Below, piece by piece: positions 1 through 49,971 of a DNA stretch of 64,000 nucleotides. Both the position numbers and the translations under genes were made by a program. Below the pieces are notes generated by a model. It searched no databases. It had not been told where the DNA came from and worked only from the letters and a program-made list of their open reading frames with translations. The stretch is from Periconia sp. R9002 (lineage: Eukaryota; Ascomycota; Dothideomycetes; Pleosporales; Periconiaceae), in NCBI GenBank assembly GCA_023627715.1, contig JAMAHW010000021.1:248001-312000 (forward strand), read 5' to 3'. The stretch's first letter is position 1. The number at the start of each line of letters is the position of its first letter.

Positions 1-2220
1 CAGGCGTGGTAACGAATAGGGTTGTAGTGTAGCTTGAGACGGGCAATGCTGTGGTAACGAAAACCGTTGAAGCCGCCAACGTTTGCACAGGGCCAGGCGT
101 AGTTATAAAGACCGTTGAAGCAGGCAACGTCTGCACAGGACCAGGCGTAGTAATGAATTGGGTCGCAGTGTACAACGATCTAGAACTTGCGGGTATCAAA
201 TCAGCGCAACTCAAGCAATAGTAATATAGTAGGTGACAAAGGTCTCAAATCGCCACGCCACGTGGTGTCTTGATAATACTTTATATATGGGAAAACGTAC
301 CCTGGTAGAGCTGTGGTAATGAAGACTGTTGAAGCTGGCAATGTTTGAACGGCACCAGGGGTAGTAATAGTAAATGTGGATACAGAGACTGAAACCGAGA
401 TCGAGACCGCCTATAGATTATTTACTTAGCTCGCAGAACATGTGAAAATAAAAGGGGGATACACACCGCGCTTAGCGTTTGGGTCAGGGTGACCACACTC
501 ACGACAGGGCTCGCAGAAACAATCGAGGTAATCTGAGATGGTTAGGCCGGGAGCAAAAAAGAATCAAAGAAGACATACCACACTAGCACTTTGCGTCTGG
601 GTCAATGTAACGAGGCTGACAATAGGACTCGCTGGAACGCTCTGTGTAATTGTAATTGCACCTTGCGTGATCGTAACTGGACTGGCACTTTGTGTCTGTG
701 TTAAGGTCACGAGGCTAATAACAGGGCTTGCTGATAGGGTTGTAGTAATCTAGGATGGTTAGAGGGTGAAATCAAACTCTTCATCAGGAACATACCAAAC
801 CCGTTTGCGTGATCGTAACTGGACTAGGATTTTGTGTGATCGTAACTGGGCTGGCCGACAGAGTTGTAGTAATCTAGGACTATTAGAAGACGAAAAAAAA
901 ATCAACGACCGGAAACATACCAAGCCAGCACTCTGCGTGATCGTAACCACAGCAGCACTCTGTGTGATTGTAACCACACCAGCCATCTGCGTGACTGTAA
1001 CAAGACCGACATTCTGCGTGATCGTAACTGGACTGGCACTCTGTGTCTGGGTCAAAGTAACAATGCTCAAGATCGGGCTTGCCGAAAGGATGGAGGTGAT
1101 CTAGAATAGTTAGACGCGAAAACAAGCAGAATTTGGCACGCAACATACCACATTCGCGCTTTGGGTGACTGTGACCACACTTCCACTGACAGCGGGACAA
1201 GAAGAGCCGGCCGTGCTGGACGGTTGTGAAGACGATACAGTGATTGTAGAAAGCGTGGTTGGAACGGAAGATGATGTCGGTGCGGAGGTTATCCCTGGAT
1301 TTCTGAGTATCAAAATATTAAAACAAAAAGGGTCGATTGGACTTACCTGAATCCGAGCCGCTTGAAGAAGTAGAAATATATATAGATGAAGAGCCGGAAG
1401 TTGAGCTGAGAAGGATTGTTGAAGGGCTAGGTGCCGCCGACGATACCGAACTGCTGATGGCCGAAGACAAAGATGTACTATCTGACAGAAACGAAATACT
1501 CACAGTACTAGAAGACGCCGACGATGTCGTACGTGTCGTCAATGTTGAAGAAAACACCGAAGAGGAGCTCGAAGAGCTTGAAGCTGACGATGACAGCGCG
1601 CTGGAACTTGGCGATATTGACGAGCTGGAGGACACTCCGCTGGAGCTCGTGCTCGACGGCAGTACAGAGCTGCTAGAGGATACCACGATCGAGCTCGAAG
1701 AAGACGATGGTAGTGCAGAGCTACTGGACGAGATTAAGCTCGAGCTAGAACTTGATGCAAGTGCAGAGCTACTAGATGAGATCACACTCGAACTTGAACT
1801 CGATGGCAGCGCAGAGCTACTAGAGGATATCGCGCTCGAACTAGAAGAAGTCGACAACACTGCAGAAGAGCTGCTCGAAGATATTACGCTCGAACTGGAA
1901 GAAGTCGATAGTATTGCAGACGAGCTGCTCGAGGGTATCGCGCTAGAGCTTGACGTAGATGACAGTGCAGAGCTGCTGGAGGATATCGTGCTCGAACTAG
2001 AAGACGTCGACAACAATGCAGAAGAGCTGCTCGAGGATACTACGCTTGAACTAGAAGAGGTAGATAGCAGTGCTGAAGAGCTGCTTGACGAAACAATCAA
2101 TTGTGATGAGCTCGATGATGATGCTGGCAATGCAGAAGTTGAACTGCCCGAATCGGAAGAAGTTGAGCTGCCTGTATCGGTTCCCAGCGAGATGCCAAGA
2201 GATGCCAGTATTGTCTGTCT
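1..2220 (-). CDS. Modular Ser-rich / VTxTQ-repeat surface protein, partial
   Basis: Unrecognised gene, probably a cell-wall or surface mucin-like protein; its 3' end lies beyond the left edge. I read exons 2220-1347, 1294-1149, 1100-921, 873-796, 749-579, 532-467, 410-301 and 179-1. The reading frame stays open through every junction. The first exon is almost pure Ser with repeats such as SSSSSALLSTSSSSS. The next exons carry VTVTQSA/VTITQSA units, several starting ITTTLSASP. The last two carry TTPGPVQTLPASTVF units. The introns start GTATGT, GTAAGT or GTGTGT and end CTAG, TCAG or ATAG. The intron at 180-300 is an introner-like element. The 5' end is unresolved: an acceptor (CTAAC..TCAG) lies just before 2220, so at least one upstream exon exists. 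A signal-peptide-like ORF starting at 2985 (MLSILLALIFAAQ) is a candidate, but I could not connect it. The Ser/Thr density fits O-glycosylation (inference). Confidence 0.7.
180..300 (-). mobile_element. Introner-like element copy A (is an intron)
   Basis: A 121-bp member of the dispersed family described in the findings. On the minus strand it starts GTACGT and ends TTCTAG. It splits the surface-protein gene in phase 2 (GG|A), and the exons on both sides carry the same TTPGPVQTL repeat in frame. It contains the family core CACCACGTGG and a degraded inverted-repeat pair near its ends. Confidence 0.8.
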
Positions 2221-3101
2221 CTGAGTTAGAAAATCACCAGTGAGCAAAAAGCCTGTGTGCTGTGCTTGAGAACAAAAGAAATTGAAATGAAATTGTCGAG
2301 TATCAGCAGTTCGTATCAATCGTGCGAAAGATGGAACTGAGAGACATAGACAGTTGTAATATAGAAGGAATGGGACGGAAGAGCGTACCCAGGCTTTGTA
2401 TTGATAATATCGAAAAATAGACGCGTTTGGCGCGCCAAATGCAACTTGCCACATTCTTAGTGAAGATTGCATTATCTTGGAGACTTGGAATGCGTCCTAT
2501 TTTGATCACAGGGATGCCAGCTGTGGGTATCTCACGGACAAATTCTGGGAATTCGCGACTTGACGAGTTTGAGGTGCTCCTTGCGTGGTTAGGATCTTTG
2601 AAGGCTACTACTTTTTAACAAGAGTAGAGAACAAAGGCGGCTGTAGAGTAGTGCTGTCGAATATAAAGCATTTGGGTGATGATACAAGAGAGGAGCTTAT
2701 TTGGATTCATACGCAATCAGGTTTGGACCACATTGATCTGAATGCAACGAGAACGCGAAGTCTCGTGTCAGATGATGCACGATAACTCAACCACCAGATC
2801 ACCTCGAAATTCAAATTCATAGTAACGCGAGCAGATAATCTTATCAAAACCACGGTGTCGCTTGGTCTGGTTCGAAATCCTTCAATAGTGAGTTTCGAAA
2901 TAATAATAGCCCCGGCATCCAAAATAACGCGCTCCCCCCTTCCATGCTGCGCGGCAAAGATTAATGCTAGGAGAATTGAAAGCATTGCAATGAAAACAAA
3001 TGACTGAAGACCACGCGAGACTCCACTCTGAAATGAATCCTTCATCCTTAAACATATCTGTAGCTTGTGTCCCTCTGCTCACTTCCCAACCTTCCCTGTG
3101 C

Positions 3102-3560
3102 TTAGTATCTGCTTTTGGTCTTTGTTGCTGTGCATTTGCTAATTGTCTTGGTTGTAGGTTTGCCCTTCGCAGTGATGGTCTTGGTCTCCTTGACTCTGGA
3201 CGTGATTGTTTTTGTGGACTTGGAAGTTTTCTCAATATAACTTGTGCTGACGGAAGTGCTGGTTGCATAAATGGTCGTGTTAATTGTTTTGTTGACCGTC
3301 TTGTTGACAGTCGTTGTGACAGTGGTGGGCGTCTCGACACTAGAAGGGCATTCGCAGTCAGTTATGTATTCGGTGTAGGAAACGCTCGAAAGGGCCGTCT
3401 GCGTAATGACGGAGGTGATGTACGCGGGTTGGAACACTGTGCTGACAGAGTATGCAACGTTGGTGGAGACTAAGGTGCTGACGGACGTTTCAGTATATTT
3501 TTGAATAGATGTCTCCGTAGATATCTGAGTAACTGTCACGGTTGTCGTCGTTGGGTTCAT
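3102..3560 (-). CDS. Thr/Ser/Lys-rich repeat protein, hypothetical
   Basis: A 152-residue ORF starting MNPTTTTVTVTQ. It is very rich in Thr and Ser, with VTVTQ, TTVNKTVNKT and TKTITSRVKETKTITAK stretches, and contains a single CEC motif in the middle. It resembles the VTxTQ modules of the gene to its left and lies on the same strand, so it may be a relative or an upstream portion of that gene. A possible acceptor (TAATTCCAACAG) lies about 40 bases before the ATG with open frame after it, so an earlier exon carrying a signal peptide may exist; I could not find its donor. No hydrophobic N-terminus is visible in the ORF as given. Function unknown. Confidence 0.4.
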   Translation of the reverse strand: MNPTTTTVTVTQISTETSIQKYTETSVSTLVSTNVAYSVSTVFQPAYITSVITQTALSSVSYTEYITDCECPSSVETPTTVTTTVNKTVNKTINTTIYATSTSVSTSYIEKTSKSTKTITSRVKETKTITAKGKPTTKTISKCTATKTKSRY

Positions 3561-6500: not shown

Positions 6501-7011
6501 CGGAACCCCAATACGCAAACTAGTTCCCATAGAGTTTATGGTCATGCTTCTGCTGCAACTCACCAGTTAGTGGAAATTTCAGGCGCTGCACCATGATTTC
6601 GTCCTAAGGGGCAATGTGGCTAGAAGTACAAGATGTAAGGGAGCCGCCTCGATGAACAATGGCGACATTTCTCACAGACGAAGATGAGGGTACCTTTGCG
6701 TGTGTTTCTTGGAATCTTCTGCTGCCTTTCGATTCTTGTCGACTCGGGTTCATGTACGGCAGTGGAAAGACCGCACAATCTCACTTTGGCTGATATGCCA
6801 CCGTGCGGGGTATGTACTCCTAGTGTATCCCAATGGCTCGCAAGATCTTTCAGTATTGACTGTAAATAGATTTCTTGCATTTTGAAACACAGAAACGAGA
6901 GTTCTTGTGCAATTAGAGATGTTCGTTGCCAGTGTCACGACAGGTTATACTCGCGCGCGTTAATACCATGCATCCTTGCAGAGTGCAAGATGAATGAGAT
7001 GATTGGTTAGT
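3561..7011. other. Long stretch without a recognisable gene
   Basis: Only short ORFs occur on both strands, none with recognisable domains or consistent splice-linked frames. Around 6200-6460 a reading frame with coiled-coil-like residues (LEKKLEREIDSLDRML) could be a relic of a regulator gene, but no start, zinc cluster or continuation was seen. No introner copy was found here. Confidence 0.5.
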
Positions 7012-9218
7012 ATGTTCTATCTACTCAAGATACTTGAAAGTAACCCCAAGGCAGAACTTGCTCAAGTAAAACAGCAGTTTTGCGGGCTCAAGACAGAGTC
7101 GAAAAGCCGCGAGACGATCCTTTATTGTACTATCGGCTACACCATTGCGATCATAACTGTCACCCTGAGAATATGGGCCAAGGTCATCACACGGTGCTTC
7201 ACGCTAGACGACTTAATCATCGTTGGAGTAATATTTCTAATGGCTTTACCACTAGGCTGTGTGATCAAGAGTAAGAATCACAATACACGTCGCAACGAGG
7301 GAATTTAACATCCGAATACAGTGTCCACAATCGGGTTCGGGGAGCATATCTGGAATATCTCCGATGGAAAGACATTTTCCCACATATTACATCTATGTAA
7401 GACTTCTTCCAAAACTACAATGATGAGCTCTAATCACTAACCTGTCACGTAGTTTGGGTTTCTGGGACTACCTACATCATCGTTTTGGGAGCAATCAAAG
7501 TTTCCCTTTGCCTGCTCTACATCAAAATCTTTCCCGGCCGGCAAAGGCGCGTCGTTACGTACACGATCATGGCGTTTATCATCGTCAGCGATGTAGTGCT
7601 ATACTTTGTTTGGCTATTCATCTGCAATCCGGTGCGGGGCTACTGGCACATAGACATTGGCGCCAAATGTCTCAGCATGAACGCAATCGCATTCGCGGTC
7701 TCAAGTTTCGCTATTGTCCAAGACATACTTTTGTTCGTGTGGCCACTGATTTGCGTCTGGAATCTCGACTTGTCGCCGCAGCGAAAGTTTGCTGTAGGTA
7801 TCATGATTACCATTGGCGCTTTGTACGTTCCCTTCCCTTGTTTTTCCAAACATTGTTTCCTAACTTCTACGTGCAGCGGCTGCATCACCACCATTCTCCG
7901 TCTCCACACACTGATGTCGTTCCGCACCACGCTCGACCCTACATGGGACTTTGTCTCAGTAACAAACTGGACGACTCTAGAACTTCTCTCAGGAATCTTC
8001 TGCGTCTCTTTACCAGCGATCCGTCTTCTCTTCTCACACTTTGTCTCCAAAGGAGTTTTCAGCTCCTTCACCTCCGCATTCCACCATTCCAAGCCCTCGT
8101 CGCGCAAAGCCAGCTTCACACGACGCCCCGAAAAGAGTACCGCATCCTGGTCCTACCATCCAACCAACAAGGGAGAATCGGCAATGGCTATGAGAACCGG
8201 CAGTCCCCGCTCGTACCAACCACGCGTATGGCCTCGAACCTCTCACATCCAGTCCTTCTCACGCAGCAGCCACCTCCGCCTTACAACCACCTCCCGCCAC
8301 GGCAATGCCAAAACAAACTCCCAAGTATACGACCTGAGCGGCATCAAGACGGAAACATTGCCTGTGCCGCCCAGCCCAGTTTCCATGACGCACAGCAGTC
8401 CGATCCTTGGAACCGTGTCTCCCATGTACAGTTCCTCGCCGGGGATCGAATTACAACCACCCATCTACGGCCACGAGTCCTCATCCTCACCACACTCATC
8501 CCTACGCCACCAGTCCTCCCAGCTAAACTCACCGCACACCTCATTACCATCAAAATACCAATACCAACAACCTCCGTCATCCCTTCTCTACCACCACCAC
8601 CAACAACAACCACTCCCCTCCTCCTCACCCCTCTACCACTTTCACCCGCACGACCATCCACACCACCCACACCCCCCATCCCCGCACTTCCTCCACCCCT
8701 CCTCACCCCTAACAGCCCTCCAACAACCCCTCCAACCACCCTACCACCTCCCCCCCTCCACCCCCCTCCCAAACCCACCTCACCCTCACCCCCACCACCA
8801 ACAACCAACCTTCACCTACCCAACCTACACCCCATCCCCGCCTCACTCTACCCATACTCCCTCCCTCACATCCCCCATCTCCCCGCTCCACCCACCACCC
8901 CTCCAACCCCGCCGCCCAACCACAAGCAGCATCGGCGCTCGCACGCCGCGCGTGTGTCGGAGTTGCGGGAGCGAGCAGTTGCTTGCGCTGCCGTCCATGT
9001 GTATTGAGCAGGGGGAGCATTTTTATGGCGGGTACGCGGAGGAGGGTGAGGAGGAGGAGGGTAGTGGGGTGTGTGAGCAGGTGTTTGAGCTTTCGGAACA
9101 TGGGGATGGGGCGAGGGAGGTGGAGAGGGCCCGGCGGTGGGAAGGCGGACGGGAGGAAGAGGTCGTTGTTGCGTTTTCTAGGGGTGGGGATCGGAGGTTT
9201 GGGGTTGTGATGGTTTAG
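7012..9218 (+). CDS. Pth11-like 7-TM rhodopsin-domain receptor
   Basis: Integral membrane protein of the large fungal rhodopsin-domain (Pth11-like GPCR) family, expected in the plasma membrane as a sensor of surface or nutrient cues. Exons 7012-7270, 7322-7396, 7453-7822 and 7877-9218 join in frame to 681 aa. The first helix follows ESKSRETILYCTIGY; LDDLIIVGVIF, the MSTIGFGEHIW loop, LGAIKVSLCLLYIKIFP and the CNPVRGYWHIDIGAKC extracellular loop with its paired Cys are family hallmarks. No N-terminal CFEM domain is seen. The 54-base last intron is a multiple of three without a stop and could be retained. The C-terminal half (from about residue 290) is a long cytosolic tail extremely rich in Ser, Pro and His, ending in an acidic Glu/Gly-rich segment. 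The start ATG at 7012 is tentative because an upstream exon is possible. Confidence 0.75.
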
Positions 9219-15528: not shown

Positions 15529-15782
15529 AGAGTACCCATGGGACTGCCTTGTAAGAGTATATAATGTACGTGTATATTAGACTAGATGGGCTGGATTACT
15601 TGGATGGAATCCGGCGATGATGCTTTTGGGCGGTTTTGCATATTTGGCGTTGACCCCGTTCGTTTTCGAATCTTGCGCAAGCTATAGAAGAGCCCTTTTT
15701 TCTCTTTTGAGAGTGCCTATGGTATGGACTGCCGTGTCAAGTCCGCATGTAGTAAGAAATATATCATATCTATACTCCATAC

Positions 15783-15905
15783 CTATATTGCAGATACAAA
15801 ATCAGTTAAATATAACCAGGGTAGCTACAGTACATCATCAGTGTCTCAATACGCCACGCTACGTGGTATCTTAATAAACGACTCTGTACCTAGAGTCTAA
15901 CATAC
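15783..15905 (-). mobile_element. Introner-like element copy B1
   Basis: A 123-bp copy of the dispersed family on the minus strand, starting GTATGT and ending AATATAG, so the splice ends are intact. The flanks show no open frame that joins across it, so it may lie in an untranslated or non-coding transcript or be a solo insertion downstream of the carrier gene. Confidence 0.7.
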
Positions 15906-16139: not shown

Positions 16140-17010
16140 TCCTGATGCATAAATACCTCCCCTCTTCTCCCCCATCTTCTTCTTTTTTTCTTTTTCTTTA
16201 CACTGGGTTGGGGAGGATTTCTTTTATTAAAAAATCGCCGGCATTCATGACATGTTTTTGTGTTTTGTTCGGCTGCAAAATGCCAATGCAATTTAAGCCA
16301 TGCGTTGTGTTTTTCGAAACGCATAACACCAGTACCCATGTTTTTTGGATTTTTTGGACCGGATATGCGGTGAAGATGGTGGTGACGATGACGATGATGA
16401 TGAATTCTATCGTTATCATCATTGTAATAGTATACATGTAGAGCTTTGTAGGTGATGTAATCAGGAAAGTAGTGTGTACAAGAGGTATAAATACTTCCTT
16501 TCTTTTTCCTCTGTTGCTTTCTTCTTTTCTTACACACTGTTCTGTGAGAATATTTTTTCTTTATTAAAACCCTAGGTGTAAAGTGATGATGAGCTGTGCG
16601 TGTTTGTGTTGGCTGTGTCCTTTCGAATAGTCGTTCATGTTCTACCATTGATATTTTCGAAGAAGGTTGATAGTGATGATGATGATGATGATTCCTATCA
16701 TCATCATTGATACTTCAAAAAGTCACATGTTCTGCAGTGCAGTGTAAAAACCCCGCTAACCATACGTATAAATACCCCCTTCCTCTTCACTCCTCTTCTT
16801 CTTTTCTTCTTCACGCAGGTGGAGGTGGATGCGAGCTATCCTATGATGGATTTGTCTCTGGAAAAATTTACAGCCGTTCCGGCCCATGTGTGGTGTTTTA
16901 GTCTGGTGTGTGTCTACTGATTCCGGTTAACTCCCCTGTTTTCGAAATTCCGGTATTTCATGACTAGGACAAACGATGCTAACGATGAAACTCATCATCA
17001 TTATATGTAT
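16140..17010. repeat. Three diverged promoter-like modules in tandem
   Basis: Each module has ATAAATAC followed by a 30-60 base pyrimidine tract (starting near 16148, 16486 and 16766). Each is followed 200-250 bases later by an inverted GATGAT/ATCATC tract (near 16387, 16672 and 16973). Spacing is about 280-340 bases. No ORF is conserved between units. Confidence 0.45.
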
Positions 17011-20470: not shown

Positions 20471-20591
20471 CTAAAATTCGCGGGTACAAAGTCAGCTTAA
20501 CTCAACCAGGGGTGATACACTGAGTGATTAATGTGTCAAAACGTTACACCACGTGGTGCCTAGCTACTACTTTGTACCTGGAAAAACATAC
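20471..20591 (-). mobile_element. Introner-like element copy B2
   Basis: A 121-bp copy on the minus strand, starting GTATGT and ending ATTTTAG, with the clearest internal inverted repeat of the family (AGGTACAAAGT near the start, ACTTTGTACC near the end) and a perfect 12-bp palindrome CACCACGTGGTG in the middle. Upstream on the minus strand an ORF of about 60 codons (20772-20592) runs to its donor. Downstream the frame closes after about four codons, so a coding role is unproven. Confidence 0.75.
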
Positions 20592-31631: not shown

Positions 31632-31763
31632 ATATGTTGAACTCCAGGTACAGAGTCGTCTGTTATTGAGTCACCACGTGGGGTGGCGTATTAAGACACC
31701 GATGATGTACTGTAACTACCCTAGTTAGATTTAACTAACTTTGTAACCGCGATATAAGTATAG
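31632..31763 (+). mobile_element. Introner-like element copy C
   Basis: A plus-strand copy of about 132 bp. The body matches the family closely (CCAGGTACAGAGTCG, CACCACGTGG, GATGTACTGTAACTACCC), but the donor position reads AT instead of GT, and the 3' end runs on to TATAG at 31763. It is immediately followed by an ORF open from the acceptor to 32366. Confidence 0.75.
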
Positions 31764-32366: not shown

Positions 32367-35173
32367 GACATTTGCATTACGGAGATGCTAGGCGGGAACG
32401 CAGGCTCACTGAAAGACACATGTCTGTTGAGGCGCTACAAGAGCAGCTGCACGAAACCCTTCATTAAAGTGGCTTACCTGGGCTTTGACAGGAGTGCAGA
32501 CACACGCCGTTTTCCCGGTGTTCTAGAGTTTCGCGTAATCCGGTTGGAAGCGTAAATAGTGGCCGACCAAGTGCGGTGGCTGAAGGATCAGGGGCGGACA
32601 TGTTGACAGAGGGCAAGGAGCTGGAATATCGGGTTTTCTATATTTGCCTACTGCAAAATCTCAACATCAACTATTTTAGAGGCACTTAAACAATAGAAGA
32701 TGCACGAGGCAGAAGGCGGTTAATTCTAGTGAGCAAGATACGGTGGTGGGTGAAGCTAGGCACAATTGAGCAACTGTGCATTCTGGGGCCAAGATTTTTG
32801 CATGACCAAGCGGGAGGAGGCTGCCGTCAGCAAAGCTAGATGGCTTGGAGTTGAATACGTAGTGAAGAGTTTCAGCCCCTGCGCTGCGGCATGGATATTG
32901 GTACTTGCCTTCGCTGAAACTAAAAGGTTGAAATTGATTGATATTCAACTAGTATATGCAAGGCAGATGAAATGAAAGTTTCCCCTCCAATTGTGATGAA
33001 CACCGTGATACACTGTGCCATCCCTTGTGATGTTCTACTAATGCATGCGGGCCGAGTAAGGTGAAGTTGCCATTCTCTACCATCAAAAACGCAGTAATGC
33101 ACTGTGTACATCTCATTCCACCCTAGCCTGCATGTAGTTCAATGCACCTACTGCTCGTAATTTACTTTATCAATAAAGCCAGATTCATAGCGCTCCACTG
33201 TGTTCTGACTCTGGCATGTTAGGTAATGGAATACAGTGTTGTGCGGCCTTGAGCGGGCTTGGCATCTGCTCTCCCTTCATCAAACCCATCTCGCAAAGAA
33301 CAGATGGAGTAGCAATTACCATATAGTAACAGACATTGAAGAGAACTACATTAAATTGTCGTTGTGGTTAATCATCGAGCACGATGTTGACTAGCTGAGG
33401 GGTTTGATCGGTTCCCGCAGTGGGCCTGATCTGGCGCGGAATGCTCCATGGGGCAATAACATTATCATCAGTATGTGTGCGCAAACATATAGTAGTGAAA
33501 TAGGGATATGTAGATCGTGGACACGGTCAGAGCAGAAGGGGGTCGGCCATCATGCTGTATGTGGGGTGGCAACACAAACTACTGAATTTCACGATAAAGC
33601 AAAAGCGAACTACTGTACTCCCACCGATTATTTGGTATCGTACCTTGGAAGCTGCTTAAAAAAAATGCCAGCTAAATATAACTCTCTTAATTATAAGCTT
33701 TCTTCGCTAATCCAGTGTTAACCGAGGTTTTTTTTATGGGAAAAGAAACGGACGAGAGTGAATTTTGGAAGCAAAAGATTGCTAATACGATTAGCTGACA
33801 TCGCCGTCTTGACGTGCACTGCCTTAATGCATTGACTCCACGGCCTACCGAGGGCAGCCGTCTACGTCCCTTGCCCCCGTGGGCAGCTTCCCTTTTCGCC
33901 CCTGGGGGCAACCCGACCCTACATCAGTGGTACCATTTGGAGATACACTATAGACTATTATAATTGACCGACACTTTCTACCCTCCTCTACTCATATTGT
34001 TGAAACCGAGCGTCATCACCGCCATATATCAGTTCATTTCATACAAGACATTATGCTTCCGTACAAAAATACATTGTTTCATCTAAGTAAACTCCCCCAG
34101 GGGTGTCGTTCACTTCTGGTGGTTCATAGCAGTAATGTATGTAGGTATGTTGCAAGTCGTTGGTTCTGAGTTCAAGCGTACAGTTCTCCGGATCAACGCA
34201 GTGTTGGAGATAGCGTCAACCAATATGCGTGCGCCATTTCTTGCCGCCCAACTTGTATGATATTAGAATTCCAAGTGATCAACAAAATGATGACAGCGGA
34301 GATAAAATCCGTACAATTTACAATCCACTGTAGCAAAGCATACACACGATTCTGAACCATGTGGCTGTTCCAGGAATTTGCTTGGCAACTACTGCAGATG
34401 ACACTTGAGGATCAATCGATTCTACCCCTCGAAGCGGGACCGGTAAACCTTGAGTGCTGATAACAAAATCTCTCATCGTGATATCCTGGTTTGTTGAAAC
34501 AAGTAACTACGTAAGTATAGTGTTGATATATATACGGAAATTGCTTGTCACAGTAGGCTCAGCTGCATACATAGGCAGAAAGTTAGGAGCCTGCATTAGA
34601 CATTGTGTCCATTGATCAACAATTCCAAAACGAATCAATACATACATACGGAAATTATGTGTCACAGTATAATATAGAGATGAATCACAAGCTACCTCGG
34701 CCAGAGAAAAGAATAAGGGTAGGAAGTACATAATAGCGAAAACTATTTCGGCCCCCGTCCCCTGTCAAACCCCCACTCCACAAAATAAGAAAATCTTACA
34801 CAAAACGTACTGCCCGGCGCACCTCGCCTATGGTACTACACAGGGCTAGTTGCAGCCAGCCACCTCGTGGAGCTCAGCCGCAATTGCAACACACCGACTC
34901 GAATTGAACAGAAATATCGTAACTAGTACTCAACCCATAGGGCCCAGCACCGTTGCCCTTAGTGAAGTCTGTGCTATAATCATCTACTTACTCGAAGCCT
35001 TGAACATCAATTGATACCGGAACCACATTCTACGGCGCTTCTTGATTACGAAAATAGCTTATAACTTGGAATTTACTGTATGCGGATACTGTATAAGCAG
35101 ACAAGTGCGATATTTCTGTCCATGTTGCGGGAGACTGAAGACATCATTGATGCGGGTACATACTCCCTATTAA
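32367..35173. other. Long intergenic region
   Basis: AT-rich, with only short unsupported ORFs. A short direct repeat around TACGGAAATT..GTCACAGTA occurs at about 34537 and 34650, some 115 bases apart. No gene, RNA or introner copy recognised. Confidence 0.45.
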
Positions 35174-35328
35174 CCTACGGAAATATCGTGACAACAGGGG
35201 CCGGACCACATTAATGCAGCGGAGACCAGGGTGAAAACACCTCAAAATCGTACCACAGACACTACCCTGGTTCTGCCCCAGTTTCAACCCTTGTAAGGCG
35301 GCCCCTGTTGTCACGATTTTTACGTAGG
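35174..35328. mobile_element. MITE-like element with terminal inverted repeats
   Basis: A 155-bp element whose two ends are near-perfect inverted repeats of about 27 bases: it starts CCTACGGAAATATCGTGACA and ends with the inverse of CCTACGTAAAAATCGTGACA, each continuing ACAGGGGCCG. It contains an internal TTTCAACCCTTGTAAGG block. There is no coding capacity. Related partial copies lie at 48894 and 50508. No clear target-site duplication was seen. Confidence 0.8.
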
Positions 35329-35801
35329 CCAATTATCAATAGGACAAGCGAGGTGTAAGTAGAGAGTAGGGAAATTGTCGACCCACAAGGCCAAGAGATG
35401 AATCGACACAGCCAGTTGGATGCTAACCGGGTTTGAAGTGCTTGTTTAATGACTTCAGCTTGCTCAACGGCCTCAGCTAACGCTCGTTCAACAGCCTCAG
35501 CTGCGCCTTACCGCCTCGCAGAAATCCAACACCGATTCTCTAAATCCATTTTTGTGATGTTCCACAGTATAAGAGCAGTGCATCTGCGCTGCATTCTCAA
35601 ATCCATCATCACATTCGCTTCTCTATCTTTCAGGCTCGGTTCGTTCCATTCTGCGCTTGCTTTGCTTTTTTCTAGACGTTCTTCGCATATCTCATTCCAA
35701 GCATCATTTTCTGAAGTTATCCTTGCACTCTCCATATTCCTTTGCCTCTTCATTTACAACTTTCGTTCACTACGAAAACTTGCATCAACACTAAAATCAC
35801 G

Positions 35802-39708: not shown

Positions 39709-41215
39709 TCAGCGCCTGGTCAACTCGATAATATCCTCAATAAGTCCCAGGTCCTCCACTACCCAATCCGTTCCCAATTGATCCGGCTCCAGAGAGATAC
39801 GCACAGCCTGCGCGAATAAACTGAAGTCATTGTTTCGGATATCCCCAACAAGGTCGCGCAGTAGAATATTGGGCGGGTATCCACGGCTCAGCTCGTCCCG
39901 CAGCGTACCATGCTCGTGTGGCCTTATATACACAGGGCCTAGCTGTTCGTTCCGCGGTTTAATTGGCAAGGCGAGTGACTCTGGGTGCGGAGTGGTGTTC
40001 CGAAATGCCGAATAAGAGGAACGAAGTTGGTGGATGTCTTGAACTATCTGAGATTGGAAGACTTCGTTACCCGTTTGATGTGGATGTGGAACATCTGCCT
40101 TGGGACGCGGGAGGTAAGTGAAAGTCATATTTGAATGTAAAGCATCGTTGTAAGGGTCGAGATCTTGAATCCTATATCGCGGATACGAAGTTAGTTAAAT
40201 GTAACTAGGGGGGTTACAGTACATGATGAGTGTCCCAATACGGCACTCGACGTGGTGTCTCGATAACAAACAACTTTGTACCTGGGGCTTACCGTGAAGT
40301 GCAAAGGGGTGGTTTGATGCATCGTGGCACTGGGTTGCTTACAGATTGACTAGCAGAGTTGTTCGACTGCTTGGGTTGACCATTAGCATCTATGTAATGA
40401 GGCGGGGCTATGTTAGTAACATTTGGGGTGTACTGATGTCCAAGTTGAGGCTGCCAAGTTAGAGGCTGTGTGAAGGGCGACGGCTCAGAATGCTGTGGTG
40501 AGGGTGATTGACCCGTGAGGTGCCTCCTCTTCCTGATCTGTAGCTCATACCTGCGAAAAATTGCTCCGTCCAGCTGCTCAGATCCGATGATTGTACGGCT
40601 TCCCAGTCTGTATAAGATTAGCGCCAGATGATCGGGAAACATGTATTCGATCGGTTGGGCGTCGTTTTCTAACTTAATGGCTGCCGCGAACTCAATAGCA
40701 CGGGTCAAGTCCGCAGCATCAGCGCCTTGGGGAATCTTCTTGACACCTTGAAGAAGCGCAAGGATAGGAACCGAGGCCACCCGCATTGAAGTACCATCGG
40801 GGACGAATCCGTTGATCGTGATGTCATTCTTATTCCACGTATCAGGTGTCTTGTGCTGATTGCGAGTCCACGTTGTGTCTTGGCCATTCACCCTCATTGT
40901 GTTGAGGTAATTTCTTCCGATAATTGCCATGCTCATTGGATTGGTTATATCGGGGTGACGGTGGGTGTTGTAGATCTCGAGATGCTGGCCATTGGTAAGT
41001 CTGTTGTTGATAAAGCGCCGCGCTATATATTTGTTGGAATACAACCCAGGCAAGAACGTAATGATTTCCACCGCGGTGAAATTGAGAGGTATGGGGTCAT
41101 TATACGTCCAATTGTAGTTATGAATTCGTCCGTACCGAGAGCCAACACCCTTGGCAAGTGCGGCCTCCGCAGCCGGGATCACGGAGGTTGTCGTTGGGTC
41201 GGATGTTCTGGACAT
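39709..41215 (-). CDS. Lineage-specific family protein, copy 1 (intron is an introner)
   Basis: Exons 41215-40293 and 40171-39709 join in frame to 461 aa; the 121-bp intron between them is introner copy D (phase 2, CG|G). The conserved core shared with the next gene runs NYNWTYNDPIPLNFTAVEII, TFLPGLYSNKYIARRFINNR, LTNGQHLEIYNTHR, PILALLQGVKKIPQGADAAD then LTRAIEFAA and EYMFPDHLALIL. The C-terminal exon has SLFAQAVRISLEPDQLGTDW and VVEDLGLIEDII, also matched in the paralog. A Pro/Gln/Ser-rich linker separates core and tail. No signal peptide or membrane segment. Function unknown; helical DNA- or protein-binding roles are possible but unsupported. MSRTSDPTTT is the first ATG in frame. Confidence 0.72.
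40172..40292 (-). mobile_element. Introner-like element copy D (is an intron)
   Basis: A 121-bp copy starting GTAAGC and ending CGATATAG on the minus strand. Removing it exactly joins two exons in frame (CG|G, giving Ser-Arg-Ile-Gln-Asp-Leu). It carries the inverted ends (AGGTACAAAGTTG / AACTTCGTATCC) and the shared core. The strand agrees with the host gene. Confidence 0.85.
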
Positions 41216-41998
41216 ATTTGGCAATGGTGGAATTGGCTGAGCTATTTCCTGGTCGCTGTTTGTGCTGGAGTATATAAGGAATTGAGGTCTTTGCGGCTGT
41301 GCGTTGGGTTGTGGTCCTATATGGAATTTTCAGAAAAAGTTCGACCGATTATTTGAATGGAGAGAAAGTGTGGTTGAAGTGGCAGTGCGGTGGCAGGCCA
41401 TAACAAAGCGCACGTGCCTTTGAAATTTGGTTGATATCATATACCTATTTACAGGTGAAGCGACTTTAGTATGTGCTCTAGTCCCACGTGCATTCGAATG
41501 TTGCTGTTACAGTACCTCTATAATGTAGCTCACTTCTAATCGAAGGAGTTCCATTAATACTGTGGTCACTGTGGTGGTTACTCCAATCTAACATCAGCGA
41601 CTAAAATAGGCTTTTATGTGGGAGTTTTGGGTGACCACAAACAAGTTACTGTGTATACAAAGGCCATCACCAAGATTGCTCGAACAGGTCAGACGATCAT
41701 AGAAATGAGTTGGAGTCGTAATGATTGTGCATTTGCAACACATTTATTTTTCCGCGAAACAGTGACAGTAACTTGTACTGATTTTCATCTTATCACATAG
41801 CAAGAACAAAGATGTCGCTTCGGCCTATATTCTGCAGAGGCGTTACCGCTTGGATTCAACAACAAATACGAGCGTCAAACGACATTGATAGTTAATTATG
41901 TTGAATATTTTCCACTATAACTCCATATACAAACTCAATTCAACAATATCGTTAGCCATATACCGGTGTAGCATGATCAACCCTGATCGCATGGCTAC
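41216..41998. other. Intergenic region between tandem paralogs
   Basis: Promoter region of copy 1 and 3' flank of copy 2, both on the minus strand. A plus-strand ORF at 41618-41800 is not convincing. No repeat copy. Confidence 0.45.
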
Positions 41999-44277: not shown

Positions 44278-45054
44278 ATGCCACAATCAGCAGACGCGAC
44301 AGCTACTATTATGAATGGAGAACATCCACCATGCTACCTTCTAAGCCTGCCAACAGAAATCCAACTCCAAATCTACGAACTGGCAGTTGTTGAAGAAAGA
44401 CCGCTATTGATCAACTACCCCTGCAACTCCTCCTACCGAGGAAGATTCGATACGGAAATCGAAGACAAAAAGAAATGGAGGGCCGGAGAGATACGCTCGC
44501 CGGAACAGCCCGCCTTGACCCGTACATGCCAAGTCCTTAGAGAAATCACTCTGCCAATCTATTACGGAAAAAACGTCTTTCGAGCAGCATATTGTTATTC
44601 CCGAAAAATAGGTACCCGTCCTCCAATCGAGTGGCTTCGCAGGATCGGTCCACGGAATCGCGAAATGCTGCGTCATTTTTACTTTTACGATCTCAATGAG
44701 AATCAAGATACAGAGAGCCCGCATGCCTTCCAAACACTGAAAGAGTCGGCAGTTTTCCATGAGCTGGGGGGCGTGATAGAAACGTTGAGTAGTCGGTACT
44801 GCTGTGCTCACTTGGTGACGTTTGGGGAGCAAAAAGGGAAGGCAAAAGGAATACCTGTTGCAGCTGAGCCCGAAGTGCCTAGACTGAGAATGGAAGGAGA
44901 AGCACAAGACGGCCATCAGATATATATGGCTTTACTTGCGGCAGAACAGACGAATTCGGCAGAAGATCGGAGCATGGTGCCAGCAGAAGATGTTGGGGGA
45001 GGAGAGTTGATAACGGAAGAACCTGTAGTAGTAACCCCGAGGGAGGCAGACTAG
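44278..45054 (+). CDS. 2EXR / F-box-like domain protein
   Basis: ORF of 258 aa from MPQSADATATIMNGEH; ATGs at 44239 (upstream) and 44311 (downstream) are alternatives. The segment CYLLSLPTEIQLQIYELAVV is the F-box/2EXR-like opening common in large fungal families. QPALTRTCQVLREITLPIYY then GKNVF is the usual second conserved block. The middle (FYFYDLNENQD) and the acidic tail are less conserved. Such proteins are expanded in filamentous ascomycetes and few have known roles; coupling to SCF ubiquitin ligase is plausible only if a true F-box is present, which I cannot confirm. No membrane or secretion signal. Confidence 0.75.
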   Translation: MPQSADATATIMNGEHPPCYLLSLPTEIQLQIYELAVVEERPLLINYPCNSSYRGRFDTEIEDKKKWRAGEIRSPEQPALTRTCQVLREITLPIYYGKNVFRAAYCYSRKIGTRPPIEWLRRIGPRNREMLRHFYFYDLNENQDTESPHAFQTLKESAVFHELGGVIETLSSRYCCAHLVTFGEQKGKAKGIPVAAEPEVPRLRMEGEAQDGHQIYMALLAAEQTNSAEDRSMVPAEDVGGGELITEEPVVVTPREAD

Positions 45055-45578
45055 TCCTACATTCTTGACAGCAATCGATTAGTGGAAATAATAGCACAAG
45101 TCATCCAATGCACCTATCCTCAATGTCATAACCTCTCATAATGAAAAATTATCTACCTAGTGTGCTGCACTTAAAGGTCACAGGATGGCCTACAGAAGGC
45201 ATAGATACAGAGGCGCTGTGTTTTTGGTTGACATTCATTTTAACAACCTCGCGATCATACACGTATGTGGAATTGCGTTATCAGAACATTGGAATGCAGA
45301 ATGATATAATTACGTATGATTACAAACGGTGTAGGCGCCCACTGCATAGTTCGCCATTACGACGACAGACATTGAAGTTGTGTCTCAACGAGCACCGAAC
45401 TCGCCACTATGCCTTGAATGACTTGACGAAGATCTTTTCACCCTAAGTAACGCTCCATGAGACCTAACCCAATCCTGCCTTCCCATCTGTTCATTCAAGA
45501 AACCCACACAGCACATCAGATCCCCGTTTGATGCCAATTTCGAGTTTCCCACACACTCCTATCTCTGCATCTCTCTCT
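45055..45578. other. Convergent intergenic region
   Basis: Lies between the 2EXR-like gene (+) and the orphan gene (-). A short ORF at 45141-45446 is probably chance. Nothing else seen. Confidence 0.45.
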
Positions 45579-46505
45579 CTACTCCCCACTCATGCAATCC
45601 CAGACAACCCTCTCCAACCACTCCAACTCCTCGACCGCCAAGTCGCTCCTCTCTAAGTCCATCGCGCTTATCACCCTTAAATGCTCGCTGCAAAACCGCC
45701 AATCGATCCGCCTCTGCATCCCTATCTGCGCGAAAAAGACCTGGTCGCTGTAAAACAGCGCCTCGCTTTGCTCCGTCATATCTATGTCCCGGAGTAGAGG
45801 GACATACTTGATGTTGAACCCGGTGTTGAGGCTGTAGTTGATTCTGGAGATGATAGCGAGAGAGGTGTTTGTGAGCGTGGGATTTGTGATGTTTGTGTGG
45901 AAGGCCCGTGGTGGGATGACCGGAAAGCGTTTGGGTTCTATGAATGTTATAGTAAATATGTCGCTTGGAGGGTCCCAGTGCTGGAAGATTTTTTCATAAG
46001 GATCCGGGTCGGGTGGGAGTCTAGAACGCAGTTGGTCTAATTGAGAGGATTGAGGGAAACCGTGGGTATGGTAGGTATTCGGATTGTGGCCGGTAGTAGG
46101 GTAGGCGGGGATCGCGCGTAGCCTGTGGCGAGGGATGTCCTTGAGCTGATCTAGCGCAGCGGATTTGGGGAGGCCAGACTTATGATGTTTGATTGTAGGT
46201 GCGGTTTGCTCTGGTTCTTCTTGCGACTGGTTGCTGGACATGTATGGGAAGGAAGTGTTCAGAGGAAGCGTCAACAGCCGTAGCGGCGCGGTACCTAGGC
46301 CAAACTCGCTGGACAGGTGTTTTGTAGTCTCCACATCCCCGTCAGCAAAGTTGGAACTTAGACCTTCTGGCGCTGGCACGATGGAATGAGGAGGCTCATT
46401 CTCATCCTGACTGATCGCGCCCACGCTGTCATTGCGGTTTTCCGTCTTGTTGTTCGAGCCGTACTCCAGATTGGAAAGATTTGTACGTCTAAAACCCTCC
46501 ATCAT
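45579..46505 (-). CDS. Orphan protein
   Basis: Single ORF of 308 aa starting MMEGFRRTNLSNLEYGSNNK. The N-terminal half is low-complexity with two similar motifs, SGLPKSAALDQLKDIPRHRL and GFPQSSQLDQLRSRLPPDPD. The C-terminal half is globular (DIFTITFIEPKRFPVIPPRA, ISRINYSLNTGFNIKYVPLL) and ends MDLERSDLAVEELEWLERVV then WDCMSGE. That end faintly resembles the tails of the family copies at 39.7-43.2 kb (DWVVEDLGLIEDII), so a distant relationship is possible but weak. No signal peptide. Function unknown. Confidence 0.55.
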   Translation of the reverse strand: MMEGFRRTNLSNLEYGSNNKTENRNDSVGAISQDENEPPHSIVPAPEGLSSNFADGDVETTKHLSSEFGLGTAPLRLLTLPLNTSFPYMSSNQSQEEPEQTAPTIKHHKSGLPKSAALDQLKDIPRHRLRAIPAYPTTGHNPNTYHTHGFPQSSQLDQLRSRLPPDPDPYEKIFQHWDPPSDIFTITFIEPKRFPVIPPRAFHTNITNPTLTNTSLAIISRINYSLNTGFNIKYVPLLRDIDMTEQSEALFYSDQVFFAQIGMQRRIDWRFCSEHLRVISAMDLERSDLAVEELEWLERVVWDCMSGE

Positions 46506-46813
46506 GGACAGGCGGTGCGAACGATTGCACGTAAACGGTTTTGGGGCGATCGAGATGGTAGTTCAAAGTCAGTATCAGACCTTCTGACTGCCGGCGTGGT
46601 CGACAGGCAAGGTTGCTGGGATCGGGCGAGGTGCTCCAAGTGAGTCGGGGTGACATACGTCGCGACGGCAGAAGCCGAGTCGACGATTGGAATCGGGCAG
46701 TGCGCGGTATGGAAACGGACTGGTGCGAGCGTACAGTGAAAGCAAACGCAAATCATCAAGGCGTTATTCGTTATTCACTACGTAGCTATCTTTACTCAAA
46801 TACAAAATACCCC
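46506..46813. other. Short intergenic region
   Basis: The gap between two minus-strand genes. No feature seen. Confidence 0.4.
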
Positions 46814-48150
46814 TCAGCGCCAGTTCCTTCTATTGCCCCGCCTATCCTCTTCCTCCGAATCAGTGTCATAATCGTCGTAGCTATCACGACGGGATCGTGA
46901 ATTGCGTCGATCACGTGAAGAGCGACTGTCCCGGGGCTTGCTTTCACCATCGGCTACAGCACTACCGGTGATCTTAGCCCGGAATCGATCTACGATACTC
47001 TTGCTGCGAGCGCGTAGGCCGTATCCTGTTCTGGAGCGCGTTGGGCTCATGGAATATCCGCGAGATCTCCGATCATCGTCGTAGTCACTGTAGCCTCTAT
47101 CTGGACGAGACCGCCCGCGACGATCATAATCGTCGTCGTAGTCGTCATAGTCATCGCGGTAGTCTCCGCTGCGCCCTTCCTTGCCTCGCCCCCGGCGGTC
47201 ATGTTCATCGTCAGAACGGGAATCATAGTAATCGCTGTTGTGTCCGAGCCGTTTCTGCGAACGGGATCCAGCTTTATCGCTATGGTACAAGGCATCTTCC
47301 TCTGTGTCTTTATGTTTCTTCCTGTCCATGAATTTGTCCATGAGTGCCGGACCGCCGAACGCACCAGCTGCAGCTCCTGCAAGTGTCCCGTACTTGTCGT
47401 GACCGAGTGCTCTTCCCCCCATTCCCCCGGCGAGTGCGCCTCCAACTGCGGCTAGAAGTTTTGTTTGCCGGTAATGCTGCTGCTTTCTATCCTTTGGGGG
47501 GCCGCCGTGGTAGTGACTGCGGCTGTCCCTTGACGTATCATCTGAATAAGCTCGGTGGTGACCTGGCCTTGCCTTGTAGTCCGGCTCTCTATATCGCGAC
47601 AAATCGTTGTATGAACTACGGGGCAAATCGCGGCTGTCATATCTGGGGTCAAGAGAAGCTGCAGAGCGCGGTGCCTGGTCGTAGCGATTTGATGAAGGCA
47701 CGTACGGGGAGCCGTCATACTGCGCGGCGCCGCTGGCAGGTACATATTCGCCCGGATTGTATGGTTTTGTGTGTGTTTCTCCTCTCCCGGAAGTTGGTGG
47801 TGTGGGAGCTTGCGGGTAGTATGATTGGTTGTAAGGCTGACCAGCTGTATGTCCACCTGGCGGTGGTGGCGGTGCTGGATTTGAACCATAGGCCCAGCCT
47901 GCTTGCGAATTCCTATCGAAAAGTAAGCGACTCTCATCATTATTGGGCTGTCGTGTTTCTTCGGGTAATGATGCCGAGATGGGTCGCCTAGTGCATTTGG
48001 TACATACCTGAAATCTTGCGCAGAGCGGGGTTCTTCATGATGTTGATTGTTTAACGATGGATTCGATCCTCCTTGGTTTTCATATCCAGCTCCGTAATCT
48101 GATGTTGGTGGTGGAGGGAAATATGGCACCTGGCCGTTGTTGGAAGCCAT
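46814..48150 (-). CDS. Glycine-zipper protein with Arg/Asp/Ser-rich tail
   Basis: Exons 48150-48008 and 47912-46814 join in frame to 413 aa. The N-terminal half is Pro/Tyr/Gln-rich and disordered (MASNNGQVPYFPPPPTSDYG, YNQSYYPQAPTPPTSGRG). The middle has a glycine-zipper hairpin: LLAAVGGALAGGMGGRALGH, DKYGTLAGAAAGAFGGPALM, then DKFMDRKKHK, the pattern of Gly-zipper 2TM domains that can pack in membranes. The C-terminal third is a charged RS/RD-type region (DDYDDYDDDYDRRGRSRPDR, SSRDRRNSRSRRDS). No signal peptide. Similar proteins are common hypothetical proteins in filamentous ascomycetes; role unknown. Confidence 0.75.
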
Positions 48151-49172
48151 GCCGCGAGGTTATTGTTATCCCACGATATTGACGTCGTTCGCAATGGCTT
48201 GTCGCTTCTTCCAAGTTTCCAGTAATAGGGGATTCTCAGGTCCAGCAGGCCTTCTGGCGTCAAAATGAGTTTTCGAAATTCCAAGTTCGAAAAAAGTGAG
48301 ATCAACTTTCTGAAATGGATGCGACGAGGCCAGCTTTTATGTCGGACTCATGACATCACCTACGAAAAGCCATGGGCCCACACAGCAAAGCTTGGTATAC
48401 ACTATCTATCCCGGTGAGCAAAATACAGTCCTCCACCTGTTATACGCCTGATATCCATCCCGAACTTCCTGGCTAGCTCGTAATGTCGACACCCTAGTCT
48501 CCGCCACACCAAGAAGGCGCGTCGTGGTTTCGGTGGGGGTGGCGCACGGCTGTAATCCTGGTAGAAGTCTGATCCAGATCCAACACGATACGACCCACTT
48601 ATAATTTCTCGTAGAATTATACCGAGAGTATTAGTGAACCTGGGCCCGAAGTGCGGCAGAAATCAAAGCAGAGGACAAATTGGGTGGAAAACTCCCAGAA
48701 TTCTCTATATCTTATGAGTGACTCAAAAAAAGAATCGAAAGCAGCTATGCCATCATTGATTACACAAGTGAAGCTCTCTAGTGTGCACTGTGTTACATGA
48801 GTCCGTAGAAACCACCTTCACTTGGATCGGCCCTTTTTCCTACGCCCCCACCTCATGAGAGTTGTCGCTCTGTTCACCATACTCCAAGATAAATACCGTG
48901 AAACAGGGGCCACTTTACAAGGGTTGAAACTACCAAAAGTGTCCAATCAAATCCCGTAATTTCTTGACTGGTTTACCTCGGAGTATAGTAGTAGTACTGC
49001 CCAGGCCTGGATCATTTAGTAACTCGAGCTGAGGTCCCCTCTCTGTCTACATAAGTACCTAGTAGGACGTTGCCTCTGCTCTTCCCGATACTTCAGGCAT
49101 TTCATTACCCTTCTTAATTCGCAACGTAACCCCCTTTCAATCAGACTAGAAAGCATTCTTCTCACCCCCAAA
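48151..49172. other. Divergent intergenic region with a repeat fragment
   Basis: Promoters of the glycine-zipper gene (-) and the 49173 gene (+). It holds a fragment of the 35.2-kb inverted-repeat element at about 48894-48935 (TACCGTGAAACAGGGGCCAC and ACAAGGGTTGAAACTACC). Confidence 0.5.
48894..48940. mobile_element. Fragment of the MITE-like element family
   Basis: About 45 bases matching the inner part of one terminal repeat and adjoining internal sequence of the element at 35174-35328. The other end is not recognisable. Confidence 0.55.
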
Positions 49173-49814
49173 ATGGCCCCTTCCTGGCTCGAAAAGTTCA
49201 TCGAACGCGAGGATGCCACCCCTGATCCACGCCGCACTTCAGAGCGCCCACTCCTAGAACTACACTACACCTCCATCGCTGACCACCGCCGCATCCTAGG
49301 CGTGCAAGGCGACACAGTCCCACGCTACGAAGTCAAGCGACAAGCCAAACTAGGAGGAGCATGGGGAACCAAATGCCTCGTGACATCTCCCTCCAAAGAC
49401 AAAAAAGAAGTAGCCATGCTCGACTTCCACAGCCTGCCTCGACCCTGCATGGAGATCGAACTGCTGCAAAAGAGCCACATGATAAAGATTGCCACGTCGA
49501 AACAGGAGTATAACGGGGGTGGTGGGCTGGGGTTGCTGCGGTGGAAAGGGACCGGAATGAAGGCGTATGGGGAGGCGTCGTGGGAGTTGAGGGATGAGAA
49601 GGGGTTGGTGGTGGCAGTTACGGTGGATGAGAGGCAGGTGAATGGTATGATTAGTGTTTGGAGGGAGGGCTTGAATGATGAGATGGTGGAGGAGCTTGTG
49701 ATGGTTGCGGTTGCGAAGATCGAGGATTATAAGAACATGCTGAACAATTCGAAGCGGGCGGTGGTAGGTGTGAGTATTGGGACTGCGGCTTGGCTTGCTG
49801 GAATTTGGGCGTAA
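49173..49814 (+). CDS. Hypothetical beta-rich protein, possible Tubby/LURP-like fold
   Basis: Single-exon gene for 213 aa, start MAPSWLEKFIEREDATPDPR after CAAA. The order of short strands (VPRYEVKRQAKLGGAWGTKC, EVAMLDFHSLPRPCMEIEL, HMIKIATSK, ASWELRDEKGLVVAVTVDER) with a C-terminal helix (EMVEELVMVAVAKIEDYKNM) and hydrophobic end (RAVVGVSIGTAAWLAGIWA) recalls fungal Tubby-C-terminal-like proteins. That assignment is by general pattern only. Introner copy E begins 25 bases after the stop codon. Function unknown. Confidence 0.6.
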   Translation: MAPSWLEKFIEREDATPDPRRTSERPLLELHYTSIADHRRILGVQGDTVPRYEVKRQAKLGGAWGTKCLVTSPSKDKKEVAMLDFHSLPRPCMEIELLQKSHMIKIATSKQEYNGGGGLGLLRWKGTGMKAYGEASWELRDEKGLVVAVTVDERQVNGMISVWREGLNDEMVEELVMVAVAKIEDYKNMLNNSKRAVVGVSIGTAAWLAGIWA

Positions 49815-49838
49815 AAGACGATAGCATCAATCAATAAC

Positions 49839-49971
49839 CTATGTTGAACTCCAGGTATAGAGTCGTTTGTTATCGAGACACCATTTAGTGTGGCGTATTA
49901 AGACACTGATAATGTACTGCAACCACCCTAGTTACATTTAATTAACTTTGTACGCGCGATATATCTTATAG
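49839..49971 (+). mobile_element. Introner-like element copy E
   Basis: A plus-strand copy of about 133 bp with the family body (CCAGGTATAGAGTCG, GACACCATTTAGTGTGG, TAATGTACTGCAACCACCC). The donor position reads CT instead of GT, and the CACGTG core is changed to CATTTAGTG. It lies in the 3' flank of the 49173 gene, so it is either in the 3' untranslated region or intergenic. It is the most degraded copy. Confidence 0.72.

Follow-up and report, generated by a model that had tools for sequence, protein, structure and literature searches.

The genome of Periconia sp. R9002 contains a stretch of 64,000 nucleotides (assembly GCA_023627715.1, contig JAMAHW010000021.1, positions 248,001 to 312,000 of the forward strand; hereafter the window) in which six related segments of about 120 to 130 bp are dispersed, raising the question as to whether these are introners, that is, similar introns present in unrelated genes, and by what mechanism they have spread. 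We find that the segments, which we label A, B1, B2, C, D and E in order along the window, belong to a family with many copies elsewhere in the genome, and that the larger of its two subfamilies carries a 3 bp target-site duplication (TSD) that does not coincide with the splice sites. The reading we favor, to which we assign a probability of about 0.82, is that this is a short, non-autonomous, DNA-transposon-like family, its core measuring 123 bp in subfamily I, and that it behaves as an introner.

All six segments listed in the initial annotation are present in the window sequence, and a profile built from 34 aligned copies finds exactly these six at E<1e-3; at E<1 it adds one weak match near 7914-7989, probably due to chance. 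They had been described as a single family of six copies. The segments are indeed related, but they represent more than one subfamily, with A and B2 in subfamily II and B1, C, D and E in subfamily I, and there appears to be a third group in addition. Motif searches of the genome (42.9 Mb in 267 contigs) gave 238 sites for a 21-nt motif from the 3′ end of subfamily I and 115 for a 35-nt internal block (each at up to three mismatches), 123 for a 32-nt 5′ block of the same subfamily and 36 for the 25-nt 3′ end of subfamily II, with none for the reversed-pattern control in any case; these sets may overlap. From 150 fetched loci and the window we gathered 157 distinct copies, 121 of subfamily I and 36 of subfamily II, each assigned by its better alignment to one of two consensus strings, such that third-group copies are counted in subfamily I; because the copies were recruited by similarity to those in the window, diverged ones are under-represented. 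The third group, set apart without a tree, was found in at least 42 places when a single copy was used as query, at least 40 of these matches having E<1e-34 and an identity of 85% or more. Mean pairwise identity among subfamily I copies is 0.84.

The evidence for movement as DNA lies in the sequences that flank subfamily I. Reading 5′ to 3′, a target base is followed by a triplet (usually TAT), the 123 bp core starting GTTGAACTCCA, then GGTACAGAGT, and on the 3′ side ACTTTGTACC, CGCGATATAGG and a second triplet, the ends of the element itself being GTTGAACTCCAGGTACARAGT and ACTTTGTACCCGCGATATAGG. Among 111 of the 121 copies, retained for an alignment score of at least 120 and long flanks, the triplet before the core (GTTGAAC...) is identical to that after it (...GATATAGG) in 54, compared with a mean of 35.2 and a maximum of 47 in 10,000 shufflings of the pairs. 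The signal is confined to three positions (observed/expected 1.12, 1.25 and 1.21, with seven other positions at 0.92-1.06). The 86 copies with intact ends give 47 matches against 30.7 expected and a maximum of 42, and among these copies the predicted one of 25 register combinations has a z-score of 6.1 and the runner-up 3.6. Although the triplet is mostly TAT, copies with TAT on neither side still match in 10 of 32 instances (1.71 expected, maximum 7), including ACA/ACA, TAG/TAG (as at C87:132485), CAT/CAT, TGC/TGC and others. Copies that could not be spliced, having no possible GT donor, also carry the duplication: 13 of 38 match against 7.1 expected, a figure reached by only 8 of 10,000 shuffles. 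A locus-specific duplication of 3 bp, as in families of the DNA-transposon type, is therefore present in subfamily I.

Identical triplets are lacking in the remaining 57 of the 111 copies, which has to be counted against this interpretation, but the loss is consistent with decay, although not proof of it. As a rough estimate of age, a mean identity of 0.84 corresponds to about 8% change per site per copy, so that all six bases would be unchanged in about 59% of copies; the proportion observed among those with intact ends is 55%, and thus a duplication may have accompanied the insertion of every copy in subfamily I.

The ends defined by the duplication gain independent support from an inverted repeat, GGTACAGAGT/GGTACAAAGT (GGTACARAGT; 10 bp with one mismatch), whose arms are equidistant from them, each starting 11 bases in from the consensus end. 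Short inverted repeats surrounding a palindromic CACGTG had been noted in the window copies; the sequence around CACGTG is conserved in most of the 34 aligned copies, and the repeats are subterminal, 11 bp inside the ends of the consensus, and not terminal. Target-site duplications had been proposed for inspection at the splice ends. They do occur in subfamily I, but their boundary lies 4 bp inside the GT and not at the splice ends, and none is locus-specific in subfamily II. Because of this offset the 5′ splice site of subfamily I is in part target sequence: a G at the target base gives the donor G|GTATGT, with the G and TAT contributed by the target and the following GT by the element. The branch site and the acceptor AG are carried by the element itself. 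A CTRAC motif is present within the last 45 nt of 104 of the 121 subfamily I copies and of 29 of the 36 copies of subfamily II; in 90 of the subfamily I copies it stands at one spacing, about 20 nt upstream of the acceptor.

The base preceding the triplet separates two influences on where copies are found. The 38 copies not preceded by G show the TAT preference within an A-rich or A+T-rich neighborhood, and where a G does precede the triplet (73 copies) another G often stands in front of it (0.48). From these flanking patterns we conclude that TAT is a preference of insertion, and that the preceding G seems to reflect filtering by splicing.

Two features set this family among the introners: similar introns are present in unrelated genes, with 157 copies whose flanks are not duplicated among the fetched loci, and copies in genes are predominantly in sense orientation. 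For the latter we excised each GT-to-AG stretch (or the equivalent place), joined the flanks and sought an open frame across the junction. With 120-nt flanks 113 of the 157 copies are usable (44 with shorter flanks were left out), and before any coding score is applied 42 are open in the sense direction only, 5 in the antisense only, 11 in both and 55 in neither. With 150-nt flanks (n=112) the corresponding numbers are 35, 3, 8 and 66, and with 60-nt flanks (n=114) 31, 11, 49 and 23. At random positions in the same loci, tested on one strand with 120 nt in 4000 trials, 30.6% are open. Adding a hexamer coding score trained on 56 long open reading frames (ORFs), which include exons of the same loci, leaves 34 sense calls, 1 in both directions and none antisense at 120 nt, with 16.5% of random positions passing this score. 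When the score is trained instead on 16 other ORFs of the window the calls are fewer and still sense-biased, at 13 sense and 1 antisense with 120 nt, 15 and 0 with 150, and 17 and 3 with 90. The initial annotation regarded genome-wide copies with no preferred orientation relative to genes as grounds for abandoning the introner interpretation; the preference is there.

Intact splice ends accompany these frames. Among the first 97 copies, of which 92 were usable with 150-nt flanks, those with GT..AG are open in the sense direction in 35 of 64 cases and in the antisense in 8 of 64, whereas those without are open in 3 of 28 and 0 of 28, respectively. GT..AG is present in 34 of the 35 sense-coding copies (one of the 35 being coding in both directions), and within subfamily I in 24 of 25 sense-coding copies compared with 16 of 41 that are not open (Fisher 2e-6). 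Subfamily I has 80 copies with long flanks, and these 41 are the ones that join no open frame in the sense direction; some of those with GT..AG could be introns in untranslated regions. The proposal that the copies act as introns is thus supported across the genome without extending to every copy, since C and E in the window have no GT donor and B1, C and E join no coding frame. Splicing of the individual copies is suggested by the GT..AG ends, the branch motif and restoration of the frame.

Excision also restores recognizable proteins. With its copy removed, a clathrin heavy-chain gene yields a product that aligns without gaps to 1xi4_A across the junction (after residue 343). We also picked 18 of 66 joined frames for their long open frames, and in 11 of them the junction falls within a Pfam domain that scores above its curated cut-off, none crossing it at that threshold in the other 7. 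A first set gave 7 of 10 (clathrin link, ketoacyl synthase, glycosyl hydrolase 28, serine carboxypeptidase, mechanosensitive channel, P450 and major facilitator superfamily) and a second 4 of 8 (methyltransferase, polysaccharide deacetylase, ABC transporter and alpha/beta hydrolase). Together with the sense bias of the frames, these domains uphold the introner interpretation first offered for the window.

We propose that a transposase acting in trans would bind the inverted repeats, which lie 11 bp in from either end, and would place the element at a 3 bp target, usually TAT, duplicating it. Where a G precedes the target and a coding exon receives the element in sense orientation, the donor G|GTATGT would be made up of the target G, the TAT and the GT of the element, and the element would bring its own branch site, CTRAC, some 20 nt upstream of the AG that it also carries. 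Splicing would then take out one duplicate together with the element and so restore the original exon. Antisense or non-spliceable copies are found almost exclusively outside coding frames. Both the transposase and the role of selection as a filter are presumed in this scheme.

The copies in the window, with the two exons that flank copy D, are as follows.

180..300, minus strand: copy A, subfamily II, putative spliceable intron in a minus-strand gene, with GT..AG ends and joined repeat-coding frames.
15782..15901, minus strand: copy B1, subfamily I core, with TSD TAT at 15902-15904 and 15779-15781, GT..AG ends and no joined coding frame.
20471..20591, minus strand: copy B2, subfamily II, with GT..AG ends and uncertain context.
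31636..31758, plus strand: copy C, subfamily I core, with TSD TAT at 31633-31635 and 31759-31761, no GT donor and no joined coding frame.
39712..40171, minus strand: open frame with the predicted downstream exon of the gene that copy D interrupts, including a conserved C-terminal segment; 39712-40194 has a coding score of 14.2.
40172..40292, minus strand: copy D, subfamily I, putative spliceable intron in a minus-strand gene, GTAAG..ATATAG.
40293..41329, minus strand: open frame with the predicted upstream exon of the gene that copy D interrupts; coding score 61.6, with relatives in Periconia and Massarina.
49843..49966, plus strand: copy E, subfamily I core, with TSD TAT at 49840-49842 and 49967-49969 and no GT donor.

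The four minus-strand copies begin with GT and end with AG, as initially described, whereas the ends first given to C (132 bp) and E (133 bp) overrun the element; the duplication places them at 31636-31758 and approximately 49843-49966. Judged from their ends and frames, A and D have the appearance of coding introns, unlike B1, C and E, and B2 is uncertain. Removal of copy D joins frames of 345 and 153 codons that are open only in the sense direction at 120 nt and coding-like on both sides; its 5′ end has diverged and no TSD is visible. The closest relative of the joined protein is Periconia macrospinosa protein P0001 (60% over 49% of the query), with others in Massarina eburnea, Trematosphaeria pertusa and further fungi. 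This single gene, thin evidence by itself, would make the host probably a pleosporalean and perhaps a relative of Periconia, an ascomycete genus placed in the Pleosporales (PMC10483032). Because the aligned segments with P0001 resume 29 residues past the junction, and the junction region is gappy in the alignment with P0003, copy D is backed by its frame and conserved flanks rather than residue by residue. When copy A is removed, two frames coding for the same amino-acid repeat are joined (..VQTLPASTVFITTALP / G / SLYTATQFITTPGPVQTLPASTVF..); with 60-nt flanks this frame is open in sense and not in antisense, and with 120 nt it is not open, because of a stop 110 nt upstream. Copy B2 is open both ways with 60-nt flanks, coding-like only in the antisense, and not open with 120; its antisense frame scores as coding-like at 60 nt, yet is absent from the window frames scoring above 2. 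Copy C has its AG displaced by one base from the usual position, and copy E, with one extra base near its 3′ end, lies about 25 nt 3′ of the stop codon of an ORF on the same strand and joins no coding frame.

The window holds several other features. Tandem repeats with 27-nt and 48-nt units (632-1064 and 1648-2077) are beside or within the gene region interrupted by copy A, and long open frames occupy both strands at 1318-2496. Near B1 there are three 44-nt copies of ATAAATAC with a pyrimidine tract, about 300 nt apart (16149-16192, 16487-16530 and 16768-16811). Another dispersed repeat, which has inverted arms (AGTTTCAACCCTTGTAA.. / CGGCCCCTGTT..), occurs at 35169-35333, 35265-35309, 48902-48931 and 50536-50567 and is not matched by the introner profile. 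Rfam and tRNA searches returned no matches in the window, and an origin from such RNAs was set aside.

Elsewhere in the genome, a mechanosensitive-channel-like gene contains two introners (C88:169293 and 169770), as does a second gene (C1:982912 and 983422) in which the joined frames overlap in sequence. A subfamily II copy stands beside a third-group copy on the same strand at C7:729554-729803, and three family copies share one strand within about 1.6 kb at C65:149282-150731, the 5′ half of one copy being unrelated. Subfamily I copies also show C-to-T changes at frequencies of 0.146 and 0.163 before A or G and 0.06 before C or T, a difference of more than two-fold that is not seen in subfamily II; repeat-induced point mutation or methylation might account for it, although the element is short.

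Subfamily II shares the subterminal repeats and the CACGTG center, and 29 of 34 copies have GT..AG; with 10 of 33 long-flank copies called sense-coding it appears from its splice ends and frames to form introns too. Its mode of movement is harder to read. Because GT is nearly fixed on both sides, a GT duplication and a seamless insertion at G|GT are indistinguishable, and a 3 bp GGT duplication, suggested by the symmetry of the repeats, does not account for copies in which a G on the 3′ side is paired with C or A on the 5′ side. We consider tentatively that the family holds two modes, subfamily I moving as DNA with a 3 bp duplication and inserting anywhere, and subfamily II, which occurs mostly as a whole GT..AG intron at G|GT sites, perhaps having switched to spreading by way of its spliced RNA, a proposal that we hold to be improbable. 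If it is true, ascomycete introners that move by reverse splicing would be descendants of DNA transposons.

One alternative is that these are fungal introner-like elements of the usual kind, spreading as RNA by reverse splicing, with the matching triplets reflecting only target preference. This is the model argued for such elements in the relevant passages of PMC8469720 and PMC9860276, and it would suit subfamily II, in which just 1 of 33 copies (those scoring at least 100, from 36) has matching triplets, with 1.8 after shuffling. A preference for TAT does not account for non-TAT triplets that match within copies, nor would reverse splicing be expected to leave duplications around copies that cannot be spliced or to produce ends that differ from the splice ends. 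The secondary-structure check proposed at the outset gave nothing in its favor either: the RNAalifold consensus of 34 copies (-8.28 kcal/mol) has 13 pairs, none with a double-sided change, so that RNA structure as the carrier of mobility finds no support, which is weak evidence in copies so similar. Reverse splicing is characterized by an absence of TSDs and a strong bias to intron positions, a combination with which subfamily II is compatible and which subfamily I does not display. For subfamily I it is disfavored, and as an account of the whole family we regard it as unlikely; subfamily I seems instead to move by DNA transposition. It is a shade less probable still that this is an ordinary family of miniature inverted-repeat transposable elements (MITEs) whose splice-like ends are incidental and whose genic copies are tolerated and not used as introns. 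The small size and the subterminal inverted repeats fit, as do the many subfamily I copies without a joined open sense frame, but the sense bias of the frames, the near-universal GT..AG of sense-coding copies and the constant spacing of the branch motif are left unexplained, and the clathrin heavy-chain copy must come out to give the conserved protein. Spread by segmental or gene duplication, with triplets and orientation shared through common ancestry of the loci, is extremely improbable: some copies are clustered, such as three on one 3 kb locus of C65, but among the fetched loci and the window, flank matches outside family copies appear at five listed rows (60 of the 157 copies having short flanks), the 24 locus pairs matching at more than 99.4% are all overlapping stretches by their coordinates, and the interrupted genes carry different domains.

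Several observations nonetheless weigh against a DNA-transposon-like introner. The inverted repeats are short and subterminal, with a mean local score of 6.9 compared with 5.3 for shuffled sequences, and subfamily II has no locus-specific duplication. No empty sites were found among the fetched loci, leaving no empty allele for comparison. The excess of GT..AG in coding frames is not significant for subfamily II (10 of 10 versus 14 of 19, Fisher 0.13). The coding contrast depends on training, the 34, 1 and 0 calls (sense, both and antisense) at 120 nt giving way to 13 sense and 1 antisense with the other ORFs, and at 60 nt it stands at 28, 5 and 7 with the first training and 20, 2 and 10 with the other. 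A search of the genome for the Harbinger-type transposase PF13359 gave no match; Plavaka PF18759 also had no match in the genome, a result that is uninformative as no control genome matched it. By eye, no longer element bearing both family ends was recognized among the matches listed (the best 100 of 123 5′-end sites against 3′-end sites). An autonomous transposase with the same termini, anticipated in the initial annotation, was thus not found in the PF13359 scan or by end pairing among these matches. Fourteen end sites within them (0-1 mismatches) appear unpaired; nine lie in ordinary copies and the others are at C35:346334, C65:153114, C112:24819, C1:722405 and C32:183456.

How fungi gain introns is disputed, and if our interpretation is correct there is at least one family of fungal introners that spreads in the form of DNA. 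The 3 bp duplication makes the mechanism of an introner testable, and the copies outside coding frames serve as internal controls that separate insertion preference (TAT) from selection by splicing (the G before TAT). MITEs are non-autonomous DNA transposons with a TSD and inverted repeats, and the family described here resembles them in its length of about 120-130 bp, its hundreds of copies, its TSD and its inverted repeats; it differs in carrying a branch motif and 3′ splice site and in having genic copies that look like introns, and no autonomous partner was found in the searches above.

Among fungi, the closest systems are the introner-like elements of Fulvia fulva and Dothistroma septosporum (PMC4457414) and the introners of Alternaria (PMC9860276, Fig. 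2A), which as presented there are likewise similar introns in multiple copies in Dothideomycetes. Stable secondary structures are reported for fungal introner-like elements in passages of PMC8469720, which also cites van der Burgt et al. 2012 for an AG/GY site preference that recalls the G|GT sites of subfamily II. In the survey of Gozashti et al. 2022 (PMC9860276), ascomycete introners lack TSDs and terminal inverted repeats (TIRs) and are strongly biased to genes, for which reason they are read as RNA-based; subfamily I, with its TSDs, subterminal repeats and many copies lacking coding context, therefore looks like an exception of the DNA-transposon type. The phrase 'target site' is absent from the abstract and available passages of Collemare et al. 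2015 (PMC4457414), and the titles and abstract openings searched, a coverage that excludes preprints and most subscription papers, include no fungal introner family with a duplication. The family may already be counted in the supplementary tables of the 2022 survey, and what looks new is the signature of DNA transposition in an ascomycete introner family. The sister stwintrons of the Hypoxylaceae, as described in parts of PMC8469720 and PMC12403724, likewise propagate as introns in a pezizomycotine fungus and have inverted repeats, but they are twin introns whose TIRs are long, and they show neither a TSD nor co-option of splice sites; both papers also mention that reverse splicing has been argued for fungal introner-like elements.

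The nearest parallels in mechanism come from outside the fungi, in the introners of the DNA-transposon type of algae and dinoflagellates (PMC9860276), a type that Huff et al. 2016 reportedly also treated. As described in PMC9860276, these have a short TSD, with one splice site on the element and the other co-opted from the target, as in subfamily I, and in most families they leave a seamless mRNA, as subfamily I would. The Symbiodinium example shown there (Fig. 2B) has its 3′ site on the element and its 5′ site from the TSD, a layout nearly the same as here. The Periconia family differs from these, so far as that account describes them, in its ascomycete host, in a 3 bp TSD that prefers TAT (4 bp in the Symbiodinium example), in inverted repeats that are subterminal, and in a donor GT composed of the target G and the first base of the TSD.

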